A DNA stretch of 58,688 nucleotides, from NCBI GenBank assembly GCA_947455255.1, contig CANGOA010000003.1:1-58688 (forward strand), given 5' to 3'. Positions 1,027-38,044 of the stretch are shown piece by piece. The stretch is from Flavobacteriia bacterium. GTDB taxonomy: Bacteria; Bacteroidota; Bacteroidia; Flavobacteriales_D; Crocinitomicaceae. Every line of letters starts with the position of its first letter. Within the stretch, counting starts at the first letter, position 1. Both the position numbers and the translations under genes were made by a program. The notes beneath the pieces were generated by a model that did not search any database, was not told where the DNA came from, and saw only the letters and a list, made by a program, of their open reading frames with translations.

Positions 1027-1321
1027 CACCTTTTCAGATAAAGATAGAATTGAATTTATTTTTGTAAGGTTGAATTCTTTCAACATTGTTGAAAAAATAG
1101 AAATAAAAGTTGAAGAATTTGTTAAATATGCACTCGTATCTGAAATCTTGTTTTTATATTTGATCTGTTGCATTTTTTGACAACTTTAAATTAGTTTTAA
1201 CTATCTTAAAATTAAAGGCTTACACGTCTATTTGCAGCTTTTTTAACATTTTAAACATTTTATTTTGTTGATTATTAAATATTTAACAACTCAGAAACTT
1301 TAGATAAAAACCTTAAAATTG
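1027..1321 (+). promoter_or_regulatory. leader region of the amidotransferase cassette, with a perfect palindrome
   Basis: This AT-rich spacer has no convincing ORF. It holds a perfect palindrome with 8-bp arms, TTTCAACA-T-TGTTGAAA, at 1078-1094, within a run where TTGAA/TTCAA words recur. A Bacteroidota-like -7 box TATATTTG lies at 1155-1162, which would give a leader of about 150 nt before the start at 1322. No clear -33 box is seen, and no known riboswitch was recognised. The palindrome could be an operator or merely debris from the IS junction. Confidence 0.3.
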
Positions 1322-2452
1322 ATGAATTATTGCAAAGAGTGTCTTCAAACTGATACGCGTCCTGGAACTATTTTTACAAACGATGGCGTATGTCCCGCAT
1401 GTAGTTATAGTAATAGTTTTAGTGAAATAGATTGGCAATCTAGAAAATTGGAATTAGAGGACATAGTTAATTTTGGTAAATTAAATAACGCATCTGGCTA
1501 TGATTGTATAATTGGAGTTAGTGGAGGCAAAGATTCAACTAGACAAGCATTATTTGTTAAAGAACAATTAAAAATGAATCCTTTATTAGTTTGTTTGGCT
1601 CCACCACCAATAGAAGTTACTAAACGAGGAGTTGATAATTTATCAAATTTGATTAAATTAGGTTTTGATTGTATTTCTATAAATCCATCACCAATAATAT
1701 GGAAGGAATTAATGAAGTTATCTTTTTATAAATATGTTAATCCATTCAAATCAACAGAATTAGCACTTTTTAGTAGTGTTCCTAGATTAGCAATAGCCTA
1801 TCAAATTCCACTTATTTGGTGGGGAGAAAATTCAGCTCTGCAATTGGGTGAAGTTAGCGTAATGGGTAAAAATGGAAGTGATGGAAATAATTTAAGAAAA
1901 ATGAATACACTTGGAGGAGGTGATATATCATGGATATTAGAAAATCAATTTAAAAAAAATCAAATTTTACAATATTGTTACCCTACAGAAGAAGAAATGT
2001 TAAAAGCTGACTTAAAAATAACTTTTTTGGGGTATTTTTGGAAAGATTGGTCTTTAATTGATAATGCAAATTTTTCTGCATTAAGAGGTTTAGAAATACG
2101 TAATAACCACCCTTTAGAAATTGGGGAACATGTGGGAGTAACGGCATTAGATGAGGATTGGACACCATTAAATCAAATGTTGAAGTATTTAAAGTACGGA
2201 TTCGGAAGAACTACTGATTATGTAAATGAAGATATACGATTAGGTCGAATAACAAGAGAAGAAGGTGTAAAAATCGTAGAAAAATACGATGGTTCGTGTT
2301 CCAATGAATTTATTGAAAGTTTCTGTGCATTTATTGAAATATCTGTACAAGAATTTTGGGAAGTAGTTGACAGTGTTGTAGAAAAAAAATATTTTAAAAG
2401 AATTTCAGAAGGAAAATATTTACCTTTATTTAAAGTTGGTTTAGGCTTATGA
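1322..2452 (+). CDS. N-acetyl sugar amidotransferase (WbpG/WbuX/PseA-type PP-loop protein)
   Basis: This predicted ATP-dependent amidotransferase would turn an acetamido group of a nucleotide-activated sugar into an acetamidino group, using ammonia delivered by HisH/HisF-like partners. The protein has 376 residues. It shows a Cys4 motif (C4xxC7 and C24xxC27), probably zinc binding, then a PP-loop SGGKDS at residues 67-72 that activates the substrate by adenylation. The size and the order Cys4, PP-loop, C-terminal helices fit the WbpG/WbuX family. The start is the ATG at 1322; a TTG codon just upstream is in frame but less likely. It is the first gene of a four-gene operon, and its stop overlaps the next start by 4 nt (ATGA). 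The family assignment is firm; the sugar substrate is unknown. Confidence 0.88.
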   Translation: MNYCKECLQTDTRPGTIFTNDGVCPACSYSNSFSEIDWQSRKLELEDIVNFGKLNNASGYDCIIGVSGGKDSTRQALFVKEQLKMNPLLVCLAPPPIEVTKRGVDNLSNLIKLGFDCISINPSPIIWKELMKLSFYKYVNPFKSTELALFSSVPRLAIAYQIPLIWWGENSALQLGEVSVMGKNGSDGNNLRKMNTLGGGDISWILENQFKKNQILQYCYPTEEEMLKADLKITFLGYFWKDWSLIDNANFSALRGLEIRNNHPLEIGEHVGVTALDEDWTPLNQMLKYLKYGFGRTTDYVNEDIRLGRITREEGVKIVEKYDGSCSNEFIESFCAFIEISVQEFWEVVDSVVEKKYFKRISEGKYLPLFKVGLGL

Positions 2453-3072
2453 AAAAAATTGTAATTATAGATTATGGTGTTGGCAATGTATTTTCAGTCT
2501 ATAATGCTATAAAATATTTGGGTTATTCTAATGTGAAGATCACTTATGATGAAAAGGATATATTTTCTTCTGATGCTATTATCTTACCTGGGGTTGGTGC
2601 CTTTGATGAAGCAATGAAAAATATCACAAAAAGAAAACTAGATAAAATCTTACACGAGAATGTATTAATTAATAAAAAGCCAATATTAGGAGTTTGTGTT
2701 GGTATGCAAATACTATCAGAGGGATCTGACGAAAACGGATGGCATAAAGGACTTGGTTGGATACCTGGTAAAGTTAAAAAGCTCGAATTAACTCAAAATT
2801 TAGCTGTTCCTCATGTAGGTTGGAATAATTTAGAAATTGCAAATAAATCAAATTTGTATTTAAATCAAAGTAATTCGAATCCACATTTTTATTTCGATCA
2901 TAGTTATTATTTCGAAACAGAGGATAAGTATGTGTCTTCATATTGTGATTATGGTATAAAAATTTGTGCTTCTGTTCAAAATGACAATATTTATGGAGTT
3001 CAGTTTCATCCTGAGAAAAGTCAGAATAATGGATTGAAATTATTTAGAAGTTTTCTTAATTCAGTAAAATAA
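2449..3072 (+). CDS. hisH: HisH-like glutamine amidotransferase of the acetamidino-sugar pathway (WbuY type)
   Basis: This class I glutaminase releases ammonia from glutamine. The 207-residue protein keeps the catalytic triad: nucleophile Cys83 in GVCVGMQ, and His187 and Glu189 in FHPEKS. Its sequence is that of imidazole-glycerol-phosphate synthase subunit HisH, but the neighbours are PP-loop sugar amidotransferases rather than his genes, so its role is to feed ammonia through the HisF-like partner to the sugar enzyme. It overlaps the upstream gene by 4 nt and the downstream gene by 1 nt (TAATG), which suggests translational coupling and a fixed complex. Confidence 0.88.
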   Translation: MKKIVIIDYGVGNVFSVYNAIKYLGYSNVKITYDEKDIFSSDAIILPGVGAFDEAMKNITKRKLDKILHENVLINKKPILGVCVGMQILSEGSDENGWHKGLGWIPGKVKKLELTQNLAVPHVGWNNLEIANKSNLYLNQSNSNPHFYFDHSYYFETEDKYVSSYCDYGIKICASVQNDNIYGVQFHPEKSQNNGLKLFRSFLNSVK

Positions 3073-3938
3073 TGCTCAAAAAAAGAGTTATTGCAACTTT
3101 AATTATAAAAAATAATATAGTTGTACAAAGTATAAACTTTAACAAATATTTACCAATTGGTAAGCCCAGAATTGCAGTTGATTTTTTAGACCAATGGGGA
3201 GTTGATGAAATAATATATTTAGATATCGATGCTACAAGGCATGGATACGAACCTAATTTTGAGTTGATAAAAAATCTCGCAAAAAAATGTTTTTTACCCT
3301 TAACAATAGGCGGAGGAATAAAAAATATTGATCAGATTAAAAAGTTAATGAAATATGGTGCAGACAAAATTTCATTAAACTCTATATTACTTAGCGATAT
3401 AGAATTCGTTAAAAAGACATCCTCAATCTTTGGGAGTCAATGTATTGTCGCTTCTGTAGATGTAATAAAAGTTGGGGGAAACTATCAAGTTTTTGACTAT
3501 TTGAATTCCAAAAGTAACAAAGTTAGTATTGTTGATTTTGTAAGACAATTAGAGGATAATGGTATTGGTGAGATTTTAATTAATTCAATTGATAGGGATG
3601 GAACGTATAAAGGGTTTGATATGGAATTAATTAATATAATTGATCCAATTTCGAATGTACCTGTAATTATTTGTGGAGGTGCTAAAACACCAAAAGATTT
3701 TCAAGAAGTTTTTGAAAATTCAAATATAAGTGGGGCAGCTGCAGGAAACTATTTTCACTTTTATGAGCATAGTGTTACACTTACGAAATCATTTTTAAAT
3801 AGAAAATTACCAATTAGATTTGAAACAAATTTTGATTATCATGAAAGTGATTTATCAAATGATTTTAGAATATTAAAAAAGGAGGATATATTCTTAGAAA
3901 ATATGTTATTCCATAAAATTGAGAATGAAAATATATGA
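3072..3938 (+). CDS. HisF-like ammonia-channel subunit (AglZ/HisF2/WbuZ type) with C-terminal extension
   Basis: This TIM-barrel protein of the HisF family is predicted to form the HisH-bound tunnel that carries ammonia to the sugar amidotransferase. The phosphate-binding loops are recognisable (TIGGGIKN and CGGAKT). At the position of the catalytic HisF Asp11 the protein has a hydrophobic residue (IATLIIKN instead of ACLDVKD), which fits loss of the histidine-pathway cyclase reaction. The later Asp in VASVDV is kept. At 288 residues it is about 35 longer than usual; the extra acidic C-terminal tail (from about residue 253) is without recognised homology. It lies between the HisH-like gene and a second PP-loop gene, with overlapping ends on both sides. 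Confidence 0.85.
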   Translation: MLKKRVIATLIIKNNIVVQSINFNKYLPIGKPRIAVDFLDQWGVDEIIYLDIDATRHGYEPNFELIKNLAKKCFLPLTIGGGIKNIDQIKKLMKYGADKISLNSILLSDIEFVKKTSSIFGSQCIVASVDVIKVGGNYQVFDYLNSKSNKVSIVDFVRQLEDNGIGEILINSIDRDGTYKGFDMELINIIDPISNVPVIICGGAKTPKDFQEVFENSNISGAAAGNYFHFYEHSVTLTKSFLNRKLPIRFETNFDYHESDLSNDFRILKKEDIFLENMLFHKIENENI

Positions 3939-5182
3939 AAATTTGTAAAAGATGTTTATATACAGAAAATCACCCTTTGAATATCATTATTGATAACGAA
4001 GGTATTTGCAGTGGTTGTAGAATTCACGAAGAGAAAGATAATATTAATTGGTATATAAAATCATTAGAATTAAAAGAATTATTAGAAAATTACAAAAATA
4101 AATCTGGAAATAATTACGATTGTATAATACCTGTTTCAGGTGCAAGTGACTCTTATTTTATTGTACATACAATAAAGAATATTTATGGTATGAATCCATT
4201 ATTGGTTACTTATAATAAACATTATAACACATCTGTAGGAGTAAGAAATCTGGCAAATCTAAGAACTAAATTTGATTGTGATATAATTACATTAACCGTT
4301 AACCCGGAAACAGTAAAAAAAATAACTAGAGCAACTATTAGAAAATTAGGTAGTATTTATTGGCATTGTATAGCTGGACAAACAGTTTTTCCTGTTCAAA
4401 TTGCTGTTAAGTTTAAAATTCCATTAATAATTTGGGGGGCACACCAAGGAGTTGATCAAGTTGGAATGTTTTCTCATCATGATAAAGTTGAGATGACTCG
4501 AAAATATAGAAAAGAACACGATTTAATGGGCTTTGAAGCAGAAGATTTAATAGATGAGTTTGATGGTATTGACGAGAAAGATATAATTCAGTTTAAATAT
4601 CCTTCTAATGAAGAAATTGAAAAAGTAGGCGTTAGAGGAATTTATTTAAATAATTATCATCGATGGGATAGTAAAACACAACATGAAGAAATGATTAAAT
4701 TGTACGATTTTGAATCAAATATTCAAAATAGAACTTTTGACACCTATAATAATGTTGATTGTTGGAATTATTCTGATACACACGATTTTATAAAGTTAAT
4801 TAAACATGGGTACGGAAAGATGACTGATCATGTTTGTAGAGAGATTAGATTAAGAAGATTGTCAAGAGAAAAAGGAATAGAATTAGTTGAAAAATACCAT
4901 TTTATAAAGCCAATGAAAATCGATCATTTTTTAAAATGGATAGGGATTAGTGAAAATTCATTTTATTATTTAATTGATCAACATAGAAATAATAAATTTT
5001 GGAAAAGGAATGACAATTGGGGGTGGGAATTTTATAAAGATTTAAATTATAATATAAATTCAATTGAATCTGCTAGATATAGTTTTGAATTAATTCAAGA
5101 ATGGTCAGATTTTTATTTAACAAAAGAGAAAATTAGTGAAGATTCAAATGATGAATATATTTTAATTGGGAAAGGTTGTTAA
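3935..5182 (+). CDS. second N-acetyl sugar amidotransferase-like PP-loop protein with altered loop
   Basis: This 415-residue paralogue of the first gene of the operon has C4xxC7 and C25xxC28 at the N-terminus and the PP-loop region at residues 68-73. The loop reads SGASDS instead of SGG-x-DS, so one conserved glycine is alanine and the usual lysine is serine. The C-terminus is about 40 residues longer than in the first copy. Two PP-loop proteins with a single HisH/HisF pair suggest either two successive amidine-forming steps or a catalytic plus a non-catalytic partner. It overlaps hisF by 4 nt. The stop codon is followed at once (5183) by the presumed tip of a degenerate IS3 element, so the present C-terminus could have been reshaped by insertion. 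Confidence 0.82.
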   Translation: MKICKRCLYTENHPLNIIIDNEGICSGCRIHEEKDNINWYIKSLELKELLENYKNKSGNNYDCIIPVSGASDSYFIVHTIKNIYGMNPLLVTYNKHYNTSVGVRNLANLRTKFDCDIITLTVNPETVKKITRATIRKLGSIYWHCIAGQTVFPVQIAVKFKIPLIIWGAHQGVDQVGMFSHHDKVEMTRKYRKEHDLMGFEAEDLIDEFDGIDEKDIIQFKYPSNEEIEKVGVRGIYLNNYHRWDSKTQHEEMIKLYDFESNIQNRTFDTYNNVDCWNYSDTHDFIKLIKHGYGKMTDHVCREIRLRRLSREKGIELVEKYHFIKPMKIDHFLKWIGISENSFYYLIDQHRNNKFWKRNDNWGWEFYKDLNYNINSIESARYSFELIQEWSDFYLTKEKISEDSNDEYILIGKGC

Positions 5183-6573: not shown

Positions 6574-7959
6574 AACCTTAACTTTTCGGTAATAATCCGA
6601 TAGAAAAATATAACCAGCTTGTTTGAGACGTTCATTTGTGACTGTTCTAGTTAGGATTGGGCTGTTAGCTCTACGCCAATAGCCTTTTCTATTGTTTGCA
6701 TATTCCCAAGCTTTGTATTTATTTATACCCAACTTGATAAGATTTCTAAGTTTGGTTCTACCTCGTTGCCATATAACCATTCTTAATCGTCTGCGATACC
6801 ATTCATCTGTTTGTAGCAGAAGTCCCTTCATGTTTGCCAACTTGAAGTAGTTCACCCAGTCAATAATATATTGTTTAAGCGATTCTTTTCGTCTTTCATT
6901 TCCCCAACCATTGCTTCAGGAAGTTAATTCTTTCAACTTTTCTCGCATCTTTTGTCCATTTTTCGAGTGTACTCGTAGTTGACATTCTCCCTTATATCTG
7001 TAAAAGGAATACCCTAGAAACTTGATCTTCGAGATCTGTGCAACTGATGTTTTCTCTGCATTTACTTTAAGAAATAGTTTTTCTTCGATGTATGAAAGAA
7101 TATTCCGTAGGGTTCTCTCTGAACTACTTTTACTTTTACACAAAATAAACATGGCATCTGCGTATCGTACAAAACGATGTCCACGATTTTCAATCTCTTT
7201 ATCTAATTCGTTAAGCATTATATTACTCAATAAAGGACTTAAAGGACCGCCTTGAGGAACTCCGACCTCTGTTTGTTCAAACCTATTTCGTATTACACCC
7301 CCTGCATTTAGATACTTATGGATTAGCGAGATAACTCGACCATCTTTGATTGTTCTTGACAACACTTCAATCAATTTACTATGATTGACTGTGTCGAAGA
7401 ACTTTTCTAAGTCCATATCCACCGACCAAACATACCCTTCGGTGATATTTTTTTGGCAGGTTCTTAATGCTTGATGCGCACTACGTTTTGGTCGAAAACC
7501 ATAACTCGTGTCTGAAAATTGTTTCTCGTAAATTTGAGATAAAACTTGAGAGATTGATTGTTGAATAACTCTATCAACTACGGTAGGAATACCAAGCTGT
7601 CTTGTTTTTCCATTTTCTTTAGGTATATCTACCCTTCGAACTGGATTCGGTTGATATTTACCAGCCAATATAGACTTTACAAGTTCATCTTTATGTCTAA
7701 CAAGATAATCTTTTAAAGATTCGACTTCCATCTTGTCAATTCCTCCAACCCCTTTATTTCGCTTTACCTGAAGGTAAGCTTCATTCAGATTGTTGGGTGA
7801 CAAGATAAACTCTAAAAGTCCATAACCTAATTGGTTGTTGTTTGCGAGGTTGTTTTCAGTTATCCAAATGAAAGTCTGCCCTTCTACATAGCCGTCGAGT
7901 TCCGCTCTATTCTTTTGTAGACAGGTATCTGATGATATTTTCTGCTTTCTACCCTTCAT
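6574..7959 (-). pseudogene. ltrA: group II intron reverse transcriptase/maturase, disabled
   Basis: This is an LtrA-type intron-encoded protein. The frame 7959-6916 holds the RT domain: RNKGVGGIDK, QLGIPTVVDRVIQQ, SYGFRPKRSAHQA, DMDLEKFFDTVNH and GVPQGGPLSPLLSNIMLNELD. The catalytic motif reads YADA where active enzymes have YADD, so one metal-binding Asp is lost. A TGA at 6918-6916, after LKELTS, then interrupts the frame. Without any shift it continues into the maturase domain (NGWGNERRKESLKQYI, WYRRRLRMVIW, ANSPILTRT, YIFLSDYY). CGA to TGA would explain the stop by a single transition. The original C-terminus is uncertain because the frame now reads on through domain V. The protein is most likely inactive. 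Confidence 0.85.
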
Positions 7960-8373
7960 TCAGTAACATTCATTTACTATTCACTTCTTAAGGTTCAGCC
8001 CTTCCTAAACATAGTCGATATTTTATACTATGGCATCTGCTGACTTCTCACAGTAAATCTTTTCCAACCGTAAATCATACTTCGTTTCAATACGTCTGTG
8101 AGATCTCCCGTAGTAAGACAAATAACTTTCATTCCATGCACCCGCAACATTTACACTCTTGTGTCTGTGTAGTTTTTGGACTTCGTTTTGTGTTGCAAAC
8201 TCATCCCACAAGATATGTCTGATGTTATTCGTGTTCCTCAGGTCGGAATTTTGCATTAGGCTTCCTTCAGATTCCACTTCGTAAAGGACACCCTTGCCAT
8301 CTGCTAGTGGTTGGCAACTACAGACCCCCATGACGGACTTACACCGTCGAGTTATTTACCATGCACGGCACAC
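7960..8373 (-). ncRNA. 5' ribozyme part of the group II intron
   Basis: This stretch lies between the intron start (GTGTG at 8373) and the maturase start (ATG at 7959). It is richer in G+C than its surroundings and contains short complementary segments, for example CTCGACGGTGTAAGTCCGTCATGGGGG near the 5' end. These fit domains I-IV of the ribozyme. A 102-codon open frame (8331-8023) crosses it but has no protein-like features. Exon-binding sites were not assigned. Confidence 0.6.
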
Positions 8374-22787: not shown

Positions 22788-24800
22788 ATGAAACAAGTTG
22801 CTAATTGGGGGAATTATCCTGTTTCATACTCAACTATTTTTTCTCCTACTAATATTGAAGAATTAAGAACAATTGTTCTTGAAAACAAACATTTAATAGC
22901 AAGAGGAAATGGAAGATGTTATGGTGATTCTTCGCTTGCTAAGAATATTGTTTCAACATTAGGGTTGACAAAAGTGATTTCTTTTGATAAAGAAAATGGA
23001 ACTTTAGCATGTGAATCTGGAATGTTGTTAAAAGCTATTTTAGAGTTAATAGTACCTTTCGGTTATTTTTTACCTGTTACTCCAGGAACAAAGTTAATTA
23101 CTTTAGGCGGAGCTTTTTCTTCAAATATACATGGTAAAAATCATCATGTAGATGGTTGCTTTAGTAATTTTGTAAATTCAATTAAACTATTAGATGAATT
23201 TGGTAATATTCATCATTTGATGCCTACTGATGAGTTGTTTAAAAAAACAGCAGGAGGTATGGGAAAAACTGGTGTTATTGTCTCAGTCGAAATTCAATTA
23301 AAAAAAATTGAAACTAGTTATATCAAGTTGCGGACGATTCAAGCTAAAAATTATGCAGAAGTTATTCAACTAATGGAATCAAATAAAAATTCAACTTATT
23401 CTGTAGCATGGATTGATTGTTTAGCGTCTAAAAAAAACATGGGTAGATCGGTTCTTTTATTGGGAGAACATGCTACATTAGATGATCTCTCTACTAAAAT
23501 TAAAAATCCACTTGAAGTACACAAAAAGGCAAAATTTTCTTTGTTTTTTTACTTTCCTTCATTTGTAATTAATAATTTCTTTGTCCGAATATTTAATTTT
23601 CTTTATTATCATAAATCCATTAAATCAACAAATAAAATTGTTCATTATGATTCTTATTTTTTCCCTTTAGATATTGTAAATAATTGGAATAGGATTTATG
23701 GAAAAAAAGGGTTTTTAGAATATCAAATGGTTTTTCCAAAGATCAATGCTGAAATTGGAATAAAAAGCGCATTAGAATTATTAACAAAATATAATTCGGC
23801 ATCTTTTTTAAGTGTAATTAAGGCATTTGGGGATAAAAGTCCTACAGATTATTTAAACTATCCAATCGAAGGAATTACTTTAGGTTTGGATTTAAAAATA
23901 AGTAAAAGAGTTTGGTTTTTATTGGATGAGTTAGATGAATTAGTTTCTAAATACAATGGAAAAACATACTTAGCTAAGGACGCAAGGATAAACAAAAACA
24001 ATTTTGAAAAACAATACCCTTTAAATTTTAATAATACTAATTTTCAATCACATCAAATGCAACGTATAAGTCAATTACATCAAAATATATTATTAGTATT
24101 AGGAGCAAATAGTGACATTGCTAAGGCTTATGTTTTAATATATATATCTAAAAATCCAACTGCTTATGTATTGTTCGCTTCTCGAAATCAAAATGAGACA
24201 GATGATTTTATACAAAAGAACAGACTTCAAGAAAAAGTGAAATTTGTTTATTTTGATGCTGAAAAGTTGGAAAGTCATGCTGATTTTGTCAATACACTGG
24301 AAGGTTATAAACCAACAGAAATTTTATATGCAGCTGGTTATTGCCCAACTAATACTGAGTGTTTTACTTCTTTTGAAACTACACAAAGAATGGTATATGT
24401 AAACTACTTAGGTGCTATGTCAATTTTAAATCAATTAGTTGAAGATGATAATCCTTTTTTAAAACGAATAGTAGGAATTTCTTCTATTGCTGGAGTAAAA
24501 GGAAGAAAGTCCAATTTCATGTATGGTTCAACAAAATCTGGATTAATAGCCTATTTATATGGGTTAAGTCAAAAATTAAAAGAAAGAGCAATTACTGTGC
24601 AGTCTATCGCACCGGGTTCTGTCAAAACTAAAATGACGTCACATTTAAAACTTCCCTTTTTCGCAAGTAGTCCTGAAGAAGTGGCTAACGTTATTTACTC
24701 TAAAAGAAAACAATTTCAAGTGTATCCATCCTTTATTTGGAGGTGTATAGCAATGATTGTAAAGCTTTCTCCTCGTTTTATTGTATCCAAATTAGAATGA
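22788..24800 (+). CDS. DprE1-DprE2-like fusion: FAD oxidase plus short-chain reductase (2'-epimerase)
   Basis: This 670-residue two-domain enzyme begins with a VAO-type FAD-binding oxidase (residues 1-420) that matches DprE1: ARGNGRCYGDSS for FAD, TPGTKLITLGGAFSSNIHGKNHH (99-120), GGMGKTGVI. From about 432 a short-chain dehydrogenase follows, matching DprE2: LGANSDIAKA as dinucleotide loop, FASR, YAAGY, SSIAGVKG with the catalytic Ser, Tyr579-x3-Lys583, and PGSVKTKM. In mycobacteria the two separate proteins oxidise and then reduce C2 of decaprenyl-phosphoryl ribose to give the arabinose donor. Here one chain would do both, keeping the keto intermediate local. The substrate in this organism is unknown; a polyprenyl-phosphate pentose is the obvious candidate. 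The gene stands alone between two short spacers. Confidence 0.85.
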   Translation: MKQVANWGNYPVSYSTIFSPTNIEELRTIVLENKHLIARGNGRCYGDSSLAKNIVSTLGLTKVISFDKENGTLACESGMLLKAILELIVPFGYFLPVTPGTKLITLGGAFSSNIHGKNHHVDGCFSNFVNSIKLLDEFGNIHHLMPTDELFKKTAGGMGKTGVIVSVEIQLKKIETSYIKLRTIQAKNYAEVIQLMESNKNSTYSVAWIDCLASKKNMGRSVLLLGEHATLDDLSTKIKNPLEVHKKAKFSLFFYFPSFVINNFFVRIFNFLYYHKSIKSTNKIVHYDSYFFPLDIVNNWNRIYGKKGFLEYQMVFPKINAEIGIKSALELLTKYNSASFLSVIKAFGDKSPTDYLNYPIEGITLGLDLKISKRVWFLLDELDELVSKYNGKTYLAKDARINKNNFEKQYPLNFNNTNFQSHQMQRISQLHQNILLVLGANSDIAKAYVLIYISKNPTAYVLFASRNQNETDDFIQKNRLQEKVKFVYFDAEKLESHADFVNTLEGYKPTEILYAAGYCPTNTECFTSFETTQRMVYVNYLGAMSILNQLVEDDNPFLKRIVGISSIAGVKGRKSNFMYGSTKSGLIAYLYGLSQKLKERAITVQSIAPGSVKTKMTSHLKLPFFASSPEEVANVIYSKRKQFQVYPSFIWRCIAMIVKLSPRFIVSKLE

Positions 24801-32831: not shown

Positions 32832-34163
32832 TTATCTATTATTTTTTTCTGATTTTAAATTCATTGTTAATAATATAAATAAAAAAGGTAATAACGGAGC
32901 TTTAAATCGAACAAGTACACCAAATAATCCCGAAGTATAGCCAGCAAAAAAGCCAAGTATTAAAGAAAATACTGCTGCCATAACCAAAAATTCATTTTCT
33001 CGTATGCGTTTAATAAATAACACGACTCCACTCCTAAAAATGAGTGTGATAGAAAGTGATAATAATAGGAGTGTTTCCAATGCACTAATTAATATAAATA
33101 AACTTCCAGCCTCCCATAAAAAAGGTCTATAGAAAGCAGTGAAAATAGATATAGGCATCGCTTTTAACATACCAAAAGGCGTAAAGTCCGTAATGCCAAG
33201 GTCGTATTTTGCACCGCCATATTCTGAGTTATTTTTAAGGTCCGATTGAATTACCTGCGCTTCTTGGGTGATTTCAACCGCTTTAGAAGAACCAAAAAAG
33301 ATTGCCATACCAGCAAAGATCATTAGAATCAAAATTGATTGAATGAATAACTTAGAAAAATTTGAAATTCCAGGTCGATTACTATATTTAATACCAAAAG
33401 CAAAAATGAATGGAGCTAAAGCAGTTAAAAGCATGAAGTCACGAATGTTGGATAGTAAAAAATAAATAATTAAAAGTTTGAAATAAAAAACAAAACCTTT
33501 TTTTATTGATTTGTCAAAAAAACAAAATAATAAATCCAAAGCATAAATTACACAACAATATACAATTGTATCTTTAGAAATACCTGTACACCAGAAAGCA
33601 GTGGAAGGAAGGAGTAAAGCTCCAATGGCTAAATTTCGTTCACTACTTGCATTGTATTTTATTCCCATTTCAAATAATTTCCAACTTGCTCTAAACGAAA
33701 AATATGCACAAAGAAAAGTCATGGCGAAATAACTTCTAAACGTTAAAAAAGTTAGTAGTGCATATACTTTTGAAGTAAATAACCCCTCTTTTTCGTTATA
33801 AATCCATTCTGGAGGTACACCTGTATTTATATCAAAGCTGTAATACCTACTTGAAAAAGGTAGCGAACTAAACATCTCTTCGAAAAAATTAAGTGGTTTG
33901 ATATAAAACAAATTATTAAATTTTTGAGCGGTATCCCAGTAGGCCGCTGTGTCTCCTCCATCATATTTATAAATGTAGATAATTGAGAAAGAAATAGCTG
34001 CTAAAATTTTTACGTAAAATCCTGTTTTATAGTATTTATAGTAAGATTTATCCTTGTTTTTGTTATAGGTATTCGAGACAACACTTAATAGAATAAAAAA
34101 CCAAATCAAAATCGCTAATCCATCAAAAAATCCTAAAAATTGATACGTACCCTCTTGAATCAT
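32832..34163 (-). CDS. multi-pass membrane protein, candidate Wzy-type polymerase
   Basis: This 443-residue protein has about ten to twelve hydrophobic segments and a large loop after the first helices that contains YDGGDTAAYWDTAQ. The motifs LLPSTAFWCTGISKDTIVY, SNIRDFMLL and FYRPFLWEAGSLFIL recur in polytopic proteins of Bacteroidota exopolysaccharide clusters. The topology, the large extracytoplasmic loop and the presence of only one such protein in the amidotransferase operon make it the best candidate for an O-antigen/EPS polymerase, but Wzy proteins share little sequence. It overlaps the HisF-like gene by 4 nt and is followed directly by GT61. Confidence 0.55.
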   Translation of the reverse strand: MIQEGTYQFLGFFDGLAILIWFFILLSVVSNTYNKNKDKSYYKYYKTGFYVKILAAISFSIIYIYKYDGGDTAAYWDTAQKFNNLFYIKPLNFFEEMFSSLPFSSRYYSFDINTGVPPEWIYNEKEGLFTSKVYALLTFLTFRSYFAMTFLCAYFSFRASWKLFEMGIKYNASSERNLAIGALLLPSTAFWCTGISKDTIVYCCVIYALDLLFCFFDKSIKKGFVFYFKLLIIYFLLSNIRDFMLLTALAPFIFAFGIKYSNRPGISNFSKLFIQSILILMIFAGMAIFFGSSKAVEITQEAQVIQSDLKNNSEYGGAKYDLGITDFTPFGMLKAMPISIFTAFYRPFLWEAGSLFILISALETLLLLSLSITLIFRSGVVLFIKRIRENEFLVMAAVFSLILGFFAGYTSGLFGVLVRFKAPLLPFLFILLTMNLKSEKNNR

Positions 34164-34930
34164 TTATCCTGACTATTTATTTCAATAATTTCTTCATTCG
34201 ACAAGTAGGTTATCAAAACTGCAAGATGAGGTTGTTGTAAACTGAAAAAACTACCTGCAGCGAGTGCGTCTGCTCCGGCTTTTTTTGCATCTTTCAAATT
34301 CTGGAAATTATTTGCACCGCCATTAATGACTGTTGGAATTGTTAAACCTTGGATATATTCTTTTATTAAATCTAAATCATAGCCCTTAAAAGTCCCTTCG
34401 CGTTCTATATTGTTAAAAATAATTTCTCCAACACCTAGCTGCAGGCATTGTTTTATATATGCATGTAATTCAACGTTAATCTTTTGGGTAGCTGATTTAA
34501 TGTATGGGACTATTTTTTTTGTCAACCAATGTTTTTTGAAATCTATGCTTGCGACAATACTTTGTGCACCATAAAGTTTAATCGCATTTTCAATTAATGT
34601 AGGATTGGTGTAAATTAAAGAATTTACAATTATTTTTTCAACGCCAAGCGTAAAAAGTCGCTTTATATCTTCCAATGTTTCAATTCCACCACCATAACCG
34701 ATTGGCATAAAACATTCAGAGCATAATTCTTCTATGTAATCAAAGTCTATTTTTGATTTTCTTTTAGCTGCATTAATGTCAATAATTAGTAATTCATCAA
34801 CCCTTTTTTCATTGAATATTTTAATAGCATTTAATGGATCACCTAAATACTTTGGGTTTTTATAATTTACCGTTTTAACCAATGCACGATTGCTAATTTG
34901 TATAATCGGAATAATTCTTGTTCTTAACAT
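34160..34930 (-). CDS. HisF-like ammonia-channel subunit (AglZ/HisF2/WbuZ type)
   Basis: This 256-residue TIM-barrel protein has RIIPIIQISNRALVKTVNYKNPKYLGDPLNA, IGYGGGIE, VASIDFKKH and INGGANN. At the HisF Asp11 position it has Gln (IIPIIQIS), again arguing for a sugar-amidotransferase channel rather than histidine synthesis. It is of normal length, unlike the 288-residue copy at 3072-3938. It overlaps the HisH-like gene by 7 nt and the polymerase-like gene by 4 nt. Its PP-loop partner is most likely the GT4 fusion encoded divergently at 35687. Confidence 0.87.
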   Translation of the reverse strand: MLRTRIIPIIQISNRALVKTVNYKNPKYLGDPLNAIKIFNEKRVDELLIIDINAAKRKSKIDFDYIEELCSECFMPIGYGGGIETLEDIKRLFTLGVEKIIVNSLIYTNPTLIENAIKLYGAQSIVASIDFKKHWLTKKIVPYIKSATQKINVELHAYIKQCLQLGVGEIIFNNIEREGTFKGYDLDLIKEYIQGLTIPTVINGGANNFQNLKDAKKAGADALAAGSFFSLQQPHLAVLITYLSNEEIIEINSQDK

Positions 34931-35544
34931 AACTCAATGAAGTTTTTCATTAGTTTTAGCCCAAAAACGTGACTTTTTTCAGGATGATACTGTACTCCAA
35001 AAATATTTTCTTTATTGAAAGCCGAAGTGAAATTTCCATGATAATCCGTTTGATGTAAAATATCATTTGATTCATCGCAGGTTACAAAATAAGAATGAAC
35101 AAAATAAAATCGGCTTGGCGTTTCAAAATCTGCATTGAACTTATGGTTTTTGGATTGATTAATTTCATTCCATCCCATATGTGGAATTTTGATTTCGGGT
35201 TGATTTGAGAACTTAAATTTGGTTGTTTTACCTTTGATCCAATTTAATCCGTCAACATTTCCTTCTTCGCTGAAGCTAGTCATCAGTTGCATGCCAAGAC
35301 AAATACCTAGAATAGGTGTTTTATCCTCTAATACTTTTTTATTTAAAATATTGATTATATTTAAATTAGCTAAATTAATCATCGCCTCTTTAAAATTTCC
35401 AACTCCAGGTAAAATCAATTTATCGGCATTTGAAATGTCTTCCATTTTGTTGGAAATTATTGATTGATAACCTGCTTTTTTTACGATGTTTTGTATAGAA
35501 CCAAGATTACCCATACCATAGTCAATGATAACAATCATATTCAT
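34924..35544 (-). CDS. hisH: HisH-like glutamine amidotransferase of the second acetamidino module
   Basis: This 206-residue class I glutaminase has nucleophile Cys82 in GICLGMQ and His185/Glu187 in YHPEKS, with the oxyanion strand PGVGNF. It starts the long minus-strand operon that continues down to 27989. The ATG at 35544 is used; ATG 35538 is also possible. A 142-bp spacer separates it from the divergent GT4-amidotransferase fusion, so both may share control. It is clearly a distinct copy from the HisH at 2449. Confidence 0.88.
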   Translation of the reverse strand: MNMIVIIDYGMGNLGSIQNIVKKAGYQSIISNKMEDISNADKLILPGVGNFKEAMINLANLNIINILNKKVLEDKTPILGICLGMQLMTSFSEEGNVDGLNWIKGKTTKFKFSNQPEIKIPHMGWNEINQSKNHKFNADFETPSRFYFVHSYFVTCDESNDILHQTDYHGNFTSAFNKENIFGVQYHPEKSHVFGLKLMKNFIELC

Positions 35545-35658
35545 ATTTTAATTTGTAAAAATAATCAAGAAACTAGTATAAAAGACTAATATTTAGTAAA
35601 ATTTACCTAAGCTAAAAAGTAAATTTTGCTTATTTAAATTAGTAACTTACTTTTTGTG

Positions 35659-35666
35659 TAGTTTTG
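35659..35666 (+). promoter_or_regulatory. putative -7 box of the GT4-amidotransferase fusion gene
   Basis: TAGTTTTG fits TAnnTTTG and lies 20 bp before the start at 35687. It is in the divergent spacer 35545-35686. No good -33 box is seen at the proper distance, and no matching box was found for the minus-strand operon. Confidence 0.35.
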
Positions 35667-35686
35667 TTTACCTTTTTTGCTAAATT

Positions 35687-38044
35687 ATGAAAGTATTATT
35701 ACTATCTACAACATCTTTTCCATTTGGTTATTCGGAGCCTCTTTTAGCTGACTTGATTAATTATGCATCTGATTTTGATCAAGTTATAGTATTACAACCG
35801 AAACCAACTTCTTTACCATTGTTATATGATTTACCTCACAATGTTTCCATTGTTTATTTGAAAGATTCGTTAACAATTTTTGAAAAATTAAGTGGACTTA
35901 AGTCTTTTTTTAATCGATATATTTTTGACGAAATAAAAGTTTCAAAGCAACGAGGTATTAAAATTAGTTTACAATTTTTAAAGGTTTTATTAAATTATTT
36001 TAGTCTTGCCTCAAAAAATAAAAAGCATATTCAATCACTTATTGACGAATATGCTACTGAGTTTACTGATTTCTATTTTTATAGTTATTGGTGTATAGAA
36101 GCAACGTTAGCTGCTAGTTTAATAAAATCCAAACAGTCTAATTTAAGCGTGATATCTCGTATGCATGCTTTTGATTTATATGAGGAAAGACATAGTCCTA
36201 ATTACTTGCCTTTTAGAGGCTTGCTAAGTAAGACGTTAAATAATATTGTGTTTGTTTCTGAACAAGGGATGAACTATTTTATATCGAAGTATAACTTTTT
36301 GGAGGGGTTTGAAGAGAAAAAATGCATTGTAGGTCGACTTGGAGTTTTTAAAGAAAATGAAGAGAAGTATTCTCCCCTAATTTATAACAAACGAGAATTT
36401 GTAATTGTTAGCTGTAGTTCTCTAATCCCTTTAAAACGCGTACATTTAATTATCGAAGCCCTTTCTGAGATAAAAAATCAATCTATATATTGGGTTCATT
36501 TTGGAAATGGCGTGCTTGAAAAAGAGTTGCTTACATTATCAACTACGCTTTTAGGTAATTCGTCCATTCGATTCGAATTTAAAGGATTTGTTTTAAATCA
36601 AGAGATAAAAAATTATTTCGCCAATAATCCGGTAGACTTGTTTGTAAATACTAGTAAATACGAAGGTTTACCAATTAGCATGATGGAAGCTATGGCTTTT
36701 GGAATACCATGTGTTGGAACGGATGTCGGGGGCGTGTCAGAAATTATTGAAGATCATAAGAATGGATATTTGTTATCCGTAGATTTTTTACCGATTGATT
36801 TAACAAATACAATTAGTAAATTTTTTGAATTAGACGAAGAAGAAAGAAAACGTTTTCAACTATTAGCAATAAATACTTGGAAGACAAAGTTTCATGGATT
36901 AAATAATTTAAAAGCTTTAAAATCTTCTCTGCTAAAGCAAAAAAAACAATGTGTTAGATGTTTGTTTGATAATGAAATGTATGTAAACATACTTTTTGAT
37001 AATCAAGGACTTTGCAATGTTTGTAGAGCAAATGAAAAATTAAAGAAAAAAACGATTTTTTCTGAAGATTTGAAAACGGAAAAATTAAATGATTTATTAA
37101 CAGAAATTCGAAAACGAAAACATAAAAAATACGATTGTTTGATTGGTTTAAGTGGAGGAGTGGATAGTTCTTATGTAGTTTACAAAGCAAAAGAATGGGG
37201 GTTAAATCCCTTGATTCTTCATATAGATAATGGATGGAATTCGGAATTAGCTTCTATGAATATAGAAAACATAGTTAAGAAAATGGGGTTTGATTTGTAT
37301 ACCTATGTGATTAATTGGTCTGAAATGAAAGATATTCAGTTATCCTTTTTAAAATCATCCGTAGTTGACATTGATTTACCGATGGATAATGCTATTATGG
37401 CGGTTCAATTTAAGATTGCAAATAAGTTCGGCATTCAACATATTTTATCTGGTATTAATACAGCTACCGAAGGATGGATGCCTACGGATTTTAGTCACTA
37501 TAAATTAGATTCATTAAATATAAAGTCAATACAACGAAAGTTTGGATCTGTAAAATTAAAAACCTTCCCAACCGTAAGTCCATTGCAATTTAAATGGAAT
37601 ATTAAAATTCGTAAAATTAAGTTTTGTGCACCTCTTGATTTTATTAATTTTAATAAGGCAGATGCTAAAGAAACTTTAATTCGTGAGTTTGGTTGGAGAG
37701 ACTATGGTGGAAAACACTATGAAAATGTTTTTACGAAGTTTTATCAAGGGGTTATTCTTCCTGATAAATTTAATTTTGACAAACGAATATCTCATTTGTC
37801 TGTGCTATTAAGCTCTGGTCAGATTAATAAATCAGAAGCAGAGGAGACGATGAAAATCCCTCCCTATAAAATAGAGGAATACATGGATGATAAACTTTTT
37901 TTCTGTAAAAAAATCGGTTTGACTGAAGTTGAATTTGATGAAATAATGAAAAGAAATCCAGTAAGTCATCTAACGTTTACTTCCTATGTGAACATTATCA
38001 ACAAATTAATAAAAGTGAAAAAGATATTAACTTTTTACAAATAA
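35687..38044 (+). CDS. fusion of a GT4 glycosyltransferase with an N-acetyl sugar amidotransferase
   Basis: This 785-residue two-domain protein starts with residues 1-405, a complete GT-B glycosyltransferase: VLLLSTTSFPFGYSEPLLADL, RMHAFDLYEE, VSCSSLIPLKRVHLIIEAL, and E326-x7-E334 in YEGLPISMMEAMAFGIP. After a linker of only about 15 residues a WbpG/WbuX amidotransferase follows, with C422xxC425 and C443xxC446, then the PP-loop SGGVDS at 489-494 and the C-terminal family helices. Two separate enzymes are thus joined: one that makes the acetamidino group and one that may transfer the sugar that carries it. The partner HisH/HisF genes are divergent at 34160-35544. The C-terminal 18 nt overlap the convergent membrane protein gene. 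Confidence 0.87.
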   Translation: MKVLLLSTTSFPFGYSEPLLADLINYASDFDQVIVLQPKPTSLPLLYDLPHNVSIVYLKDSLTIFEKLSGLKSFFNRYIFDEIKVSKQRGIKISLQFLKVLLNYFSLASKNKKHIQSLIDEYATEFTDFYFYSYWCIEATLAASLIKSKQSNLSVISRMHAFDLYEERHSPNYLPFRGLLSKTLNNIVFVSEQGMNYFISKYNFLEGFEEKKCIVGRLGVFKENEEKYSPLIYNKREFVIVSCSSLIPLKRVHLIIEALSEIKNQSIYWVHFGNGVLEKELLTLSTTLLGNSSIRFEFKGFVLNQEIKNYFANNPVDLFVNTSKYEGLPISMMEAMAFGIPCVGTDVGGVSEIIEDHKNGYLLSVDFLPIDLTNTISKFFELDEEERKRFQLLAINTWKTKFHGLNNLKALKSSLLKQKKQCVRCLFDNEMYVNILFDNQGLCNVCRANEKLKKKTIFSEDLKTEKLNDLLTEIRKRKHKKYDCLIGLSGGVDSSYVVYKAKEWGLNPLILHIDNGWNSELASMNIENIVKKMGFDLYTYVINWSEMKDIQLSFLKSSVVDIDLPMDNAIMAVQFKIANKFGIQHILSGINTATEGWMPTDFSHYKLDSLNIKSIQRKFGSVKLKTFPTVSPLQFKWNIKIRKIKFCAPLDFINFNKADAKETLIREFGWRDYGGKHYENVFTKFYQGVILPDKFNFDKRISHLSVLLSSGQINKSEAEETMKIPPYKIEEYMDDKLFFCKKIGLTEVEFDEIMKRNPVSHLTFTSYVNIINKLIKVKKILTFYK

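Follow-up and report, generated by a model that had tools for sequence, protein, structure and literature searches.

The window, which is the whole stretch of DNA analyzed here (58,688 nucleotides), carries on its forward strand a single open frame that runs without internal stops from an ATG at position 35687 to a stop codon ending at 38044. Its 785 codons encode a GT4-type glycosyltransferase (GT) joined to an N-acetyl sugar amidotransferase (NASAT) of the WbuX/WbpG type; both halves score above the cut-offs of their profiles (PF00534 and TIGR03573), and a fused homologue is found in the same genus. Across an intergenic region of 142 bp, read from the sequence (35545-35686), two genes are transcribed divergently from the fusion: HisH2, a putative class I glutaminase subunit (34924-35544, minus strand), and HisF2, a putative ammonia-channel subunit resembling WbuZ/AglZ (34160-34930, minus strand). 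An earlier note, made from the letters of this DNA, had described a complete GT4 (residues 1-405) followed by a complete WbpG/WbuX amidotransferase, with HisH/HisF partners lying divergently next door, and our analysis agrees with it in the domain limits, the four-cysteine motif, the SGGVDS loop, and the neighbors.

Are both halves complete members of their families? In the GT4 half (residues 1-405; 35687-36901, plus strand), PF00534 (Glycos_transf_1) scored 93.1 bits over residues 234-390, against a gathering score of 26.4; residues 1-233, which form the N-terminal Rossmann half, lie outside the Pfam coverage. The predicted structure of the fusion protein has a mean pLDDT of 93.6, and its GT half gave full-length Foldseek matches to BshA, HepE, and MshA, with TM scores by target of about 0.75. 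Because the predicted structure matches these whole GT-B enzymes, the GT4 half is complete, including its N-terminal Rossmann half. The EX7E motif (E326 and E334; 36662-36688, plus strand) is unchanged in 11 aligned fusions, and its Glu residues are kept in 38/39 and 38/40 sequences of a wider alignment. A GT-B fold across the N-terminal half, the PF00534 domain, and EX7E are all shared with the retaining GT4 enzymes BshA, HepE, MshA, and WbnH. Identity to the structural matches among GT4 enzymes is, however, 14-21%, and the window's GT4, unlike them, bears a C-terminal amidotransferase.

The NASAT half (residues 422-785; 36950-38041, plus strand) scored 246 bits against TIGR03573 (WbuX, N-acetyl sugar amidotransferase) at residues 420-755, above the cut-off of 203.2. 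Its domain model is closest to 8WEX, with TM scores of 0.69/0.68 against 8WEX_A and with 8WEX_B as the best structural match (E 6e-15; the next other protein is at 1e-6). The tetracysteine motif (C422, C425, C443, and C446; 36950-37024, plus strand), as defined in the structural work on LpNASAT, where it is a zinc site (PMC10607449), is invariant in 11 fusions. In the PP-loop SGGVDS (residues 489-494; 37151-37168, plus strand), the S, G, G, D, and S are conserved in 36/36 aligned sequences. The Cys4 zinc motif, the SGGxDS loop, and the HisH/HisF partners recur in the known NASATs WbpG (P. aeruginosa O5), WbuX (E. coli O145), and LpNASAT (8WEX). Whereas those proteins stand alone—the 8WEX chain has 468 aa, and typical stand-alone frames in this analysis have 370-430 aa—the window's NASAT follows a GT4 and makes up the C-terminal half of a chain of 785 aa; a stand-alone form is usual for described members but no strict requirement for membership. 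Catalytic motifs are conserved in both domains, and both domains are complete. By membership tests each is an ordinary member of its family; the chain that links the two sets this protein apart.

How closely are the two halves joined? Between the domains lies a weaker stretch of the model (residues 406-421; 36902-36949, plus strand), with a pLDDT of 81 over the block 411-420. The last conserved GT4 residue, N407, is separated from the first zinc cysteine, C422, by 14 residues in the window and by 14-29 residues in homologues. At two loci where the same genes are unfused (L078 and L079), the GT4, as read from the sequences, ends ~11 residues past the equivalent Asn, and WbuX starts 7 residues ahead of its Cys. 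Because the unfused proteins end and start at matching distances, the fusion brings essentially no extra linker, and the "very short linker" of the earlier description is borne out. The fusion model has a pTM of 0.67, at which it gives no confident arrangement of the two halves, or of their active sites, with respect to each other.

The window comes from a draft genome (212 contigs, 77% complete) in which two genes might have been joined by a sequencing or assembly error, and the earlier note had itself raised the case of a single error near nt 36940 in a gene whose homologues are always split. The search for homologous fusions that it suggested returned 20 different fused homologues, drawn from assemblies independent of one another. 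In one genome from the same genus, the fused protein is 82% identical across all 785 residues, and the 2355 aligned nucleotides show no indels relative to the window. For this pair dN/dS comes to 0.12 over the whole gene, with values of 0.14 for the GT4 half, 0.10 for the WbuX half, and 0.19 for codons 381-460, which contain the junction; the fusion is under purifying selection. The fused homologues, the equal length within the genus, and the overall dN/dS rule out a sequencing error as the origin of the fusion, and the chance of a joining artefact is negligible.

Where else does this architecture occur? Of 240 genomes in the window's family, 88 had WbuX above the cut-off, and in 13 of these 88 it lay in a frame >700 aa behind a glycosyltransferase; in one of the 13 (genome G031, locus L062) the partner is a different GT-B enzyme. 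A search of bacterial contigs yielded more fused proteins in the Bacteroidota, from Flammeovirgaceae (L075), Sphingobacteriaceae (L076), Flavobacteriales (L073 and L074), and others. GT4-WbuX proteins number about 20 distinct sequences in total, in Bacteroidota and concentrated in the window's family. When the phylum (395 genomes, 54 with WbuX over the cut-off) and the order (399 genomes, 98 with WbuX over the cut-off) were sampled evenly, above-cut-off frames >600 aa were confined to the window's family. By these family, contig, phylum, and order counts, GT4-WbuX proteins are fairly frequent in one family and occur sporadically outside it. No relatives of the fusion were confirmed in the viral contigs searched; in the plasmids searched, the matches listed were single-domain relatives only, none of them reaching a query coverage of at least 80%. 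The WbuX of one locus in the window's family (L040) is identical to the WbuX of another (L098, Crocinitomicaceae).

Did the fusion arise once? At L078 and L079, a GT4 gene and WbuX overlap in an ATGA, and HisF-HisH point away from the GT4 gene; this is the layout of the window in unfused form. In a careful WbuX tree, the 12 fused proteins that make up the window's clade (100/91) have the proteins of these two loci as their sister, with support of 100/99. On the WbuX tree, the GT4-fused label has to change about five times, and at least four of these changes fall on supported branches; the count does not separate gains from losses. Trees with one fusion change made up 0% of the bootstrap WbuX trees. 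A single origin of all GT-WbuX fusions was rejected by AU tests on quick trees with long branches, both for one clade of fusions on a fuller WbuX tree (p = 0.007) and on the GT4 tree (p 4.6e-74). Within the window's clade, the WbuX halves of the 12 proteins are monophyletic, while the GT4 halves are not one clade (AU p 1.8e-4, on a quick GT4 tree with some long branches), and an unfused GT4 of the same genus (genome G005, locus L011; 46-47% identical to the window's) is placed among them. Because the WbuX halves form one clade and the GT4 halves do not, the GT half seems to have been exchanged on a constant amidotransferase.

Two more GT-B types are fused to WbuX, at L062 (5093-7330, minus strand; 745 aa) and at L090 (3360-5810, plus strand; 816 aa); in both, WbuX stands behind GT-B domains unmatched by the GT4 profile of the window's family. 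L090 also carries a second WbuX in pieces (2655-3363), and its GT part is similar, by eye, to a conserved protein of ~430 aa. The latter (L064:11028-12347 and 11 further loci) is encoded close to the fusion or immediately downstream of it and has no Pfam or NCBIfam matches; judging by its N-terminus, it is likely a further GT-B enzyme. Other domain orders were seen as well. At L081 (4027-7239, plus strand), an open frame of 1070 aa reads GT4-HisH-GT4 and is followed by HisF and WbuX as separate genes; its HisH keeps GVCLGMQ and HPEKSH, and the arrangement is known from one metagenome-assembled genome only. An Opitutia bacterium (L084:1142-3196, plus strand) has a HisF-WbuX fusion of 684 aa with HisH upstream. 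An apparent 816-aa HisF fusion in L086 was discarded as an ORF extension artefact in high-GC DNA.

GATase_7 is joined to a distant WbuX-like domain in another set of proteins, of 605-684 aa (L056:7127-9181, L058:204-2225, L060:99-1946, and L061:1160-3196, also L103 and L126; Pfam matches are shown for L056, L058, L060, and L061). Like the window's protein, these class II GATase fusions contain a PP-loop amidotransferase-like domain, but the partner domain in L056, L058, L060, and L061 is a glutaminase, and the WbuX score is under the cut-off. They are perhaps self-contained, with no need for HisH/HisF. Tanf_01265 of Tannerella is a literature lead and a candidate parallel to them (PMC6120980).

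What kind of partners are HisH2 and HisF2? HisH2 scored 238 bits against TIGR01855 and keeps the nucleophile motif GICLGMQ and HPEKSH. HisF2 scored 293.7 bits against NF038364 (cut-off 310) and 255.3 bits against TIGR03572 (cut-off 299.7), and is called HisF2-like because it falls under both equivalog cut-offs. HisF requires Asp11 for its cyclase reaction. This residue is Q in the window's HisF2, L, T, Q, or I in the other acetamidino HisFs aligned, and D in four HisFs of his operons. Every aligned HisF of this kind lacks Asp11, and the his-operon controls keep it; the partners therefore match the acetamidino type rather than histidine biosynthesis. They resemble the WbuZ/AglZ acetamidino modules in the two HisH motifs, the replaced Asp11, and the pairing of adjacent genes, and they differ from them in the HisF2 scores and in an amidotransferase fused to a GT. 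In 13/13 fusion genomes there is a HisF of the second type, with 33-100% identity to the window's, and a HisH next to or near it; the pair lies ~19 kb from the fusion in G260 and on a different contig in G071, G248, and G233. In one near-complete genome of the same genus (G001, 99%), the sole HisF-family gene at a good score adjoins the fusion. A histidine-operon HisF was looked for in this genome and not found, so the organism may lack the usual histidine route.

How might such a protein work? The reading we favor, with somewhat better than even confidence, is a bifunctional enzyme that makes an acetamidino sugar on NDP and whose attached GT4 transfers the product. HisH2 would hydrolyze glutamine, and HisF2, its cyclase function gone, would conduct the ammonia to the NASAT half. 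There the PP-loop, with ATP, would activate the acetamido oxygen of a nucleotide-linked N-acetyl sugar; ammonia would displace the activated oxygen to give the acetamidine, and the GT4 half of the same chain would pass the amidino sugar from its NDP donor to an acceptor glycan in a retaining reaction. We infer the enzymatic activity, the order of the steps, the physical channelling, and the identity of donor and acceptor. In favor of this reading, the GT half resembles UDP-sugar GT4 enzymes in structure and the NASAT half resembles 8WEX. For the NASAT family, the reaction and a proposed chemistry in which ATP yields AMP and PPi have been described (PMC10607449), and one precedent on a nucleotide sugar, the conversion of CMP-Leg5Ac7Ac to CMP-Leg5Am7Ac by PtmG, is cited in PMC3766260. 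GTs and amidination are linked elsewhere too, by the two other GT-B types on WbuX and by the GT4-HisH-GT4 frame of L081, and a recurrent, shared fusion suggests physical coupling between making and using an unusual sugar. The coupling of amidine formation to transfer, already put forward in the earlier note, is thereby strengthened by the recurrence, by the exchange of GT halves, and by the GT4-HisH-GT4 protein. Against the favored reading, genes of donor pathways show no linkage to the fusion, and a neutral fusion of operon neighbors would be expected to give part of the same pattern. More tentatively, and with confidence short of even, we suggest that one assembly of HisH2, HisF2, NASAT, and GT may both make and consume the acetamidino group, such that the amidino sugar nucleotide never leaves, or may install the amidine on a lipid-linked glycan at the site of transfer; the GT module would be exchanged and the amidotransferase kept constant.

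Which nucleotide sugar might be the donor? GT4 enzymes use NDP sugars. NeuB is present in the window's own genome; at >200 bits, it is absent from six fusion genomes (G071, G076, G077, G078, G248, and G260), four of which are >90% complete. Since several near-complete fusion genomes lack NeuB and GT4 enzymes use NDP sugars, a CMP-nonulosonate is unlikely to be the general substrate, and we disfavor it as the general donor. UDP-L-FucNAc is likewise unsupported in this role: an FnlA-like dehydratase gave a very strong match in G076 only, and none of the fusion genomes had one at the cut-off.

The steps might also run in the opposite order, with GT4 first adding an N-acetyl sugar to a lipid-linked glycan and the tethered NASAT then amidinating it with ammonia from HisH2/HisF2. 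The fusion, the missing linker, and the recurrence fit this order equally well, one amidotransferase lineage is paired with different GT4 lineages, and the pocket of LpNASAT is unusually wide and open (PMC10607449). We nevertheless consider transfer before amidination unlikely: most family members are stand-alone proteins, and the precedent cited in PMC3766260 is a nucleotide sugar. A further account is a nearly neutral fusion of adjacent genes, in which sequential enzymes of one pathway are co-expressed without channelling. The overlap at L078/L079 is such that a small change could fuse the two genes, HisH-HisF and HisF-WbuX fusions also exist, and the same genus has an unfused GT4 that shares 46% identity with the window's (genome G005, locus L011). 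This account is improbable, given that the fusion arose repeatedly with three different kinds of GT-B enzyme, was kept for long under purifying selection, and stays intact even where HisH2/HisF2 sit elsewhere. It is very improbable that the C-terminal half forms some other amide or amidine, such as a uronamide, for although AsnB, NadE, and GMP synthetase share the PP-loop fold, the WbuX score is above the cut-off, the Cys4 motif is of WbuX type, 8WEX is the clear best structural match, and the HisH2/HisF2 partners are as in known acetamidino systems.

Acetamidino sugars are found on O-antigens, flagella, and S-layers. In the open-access literature searched, we found no settled answer as to whether the amidotransferase acts on a nucleotide-bound or a lipid-bound sugar, and no description of a GT-NASAT fusion. 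According to the structural paper on this enzyme, little is known of its structural and functional properties (PMC10607449). N-sugar amidotransferases appear in a 2026 survey of the QueC superfamily as proteins of 300-400 aa, next to a subcluster whose members are very large, and the word "glycosyltransferase" is absent from its text (PMC13329287). A natural fusion with a GT names the amidotransferase's partner enzyme and makes order and channelling testable in one protein. Natural controls are at hand in relatives that have this gene layout without the fusion and in fused relatives with a swapped GT half.

The window holds a second, unfused acetamidino cluster (1319-5182, plus strand), comprising a WbuX with the loop SGGKDS, HisH, a HisF resembling WbuZ, and another WbuX, which has SGASDS in its PP-loop in place of SGGxDS; one HisH/HisF pair is thus accompanied by two amidotransferases. 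Among the surveyed genomes, a WbuX-like match of 150 bits (G463:C77:9001-9954) lies within a 1347-aa open frame. Elsewhere in the window, a 670-aa chain (22788-24800, plus strand) combines a DprE1-like half (NF053785, 361 bits, below the cut-off of 500) with a DprE2-like half (NF053786, 127 bits, below the cut-off of 250) and is, by these matches, a putative oxidase-reductase fusion of the polyprenyl-phospho-arabinose type. A group II intron reverse transcriptase/maturase occupies 6916-8288 (minus strand), with Rfam group II D1D4 matches at 7998-8288.
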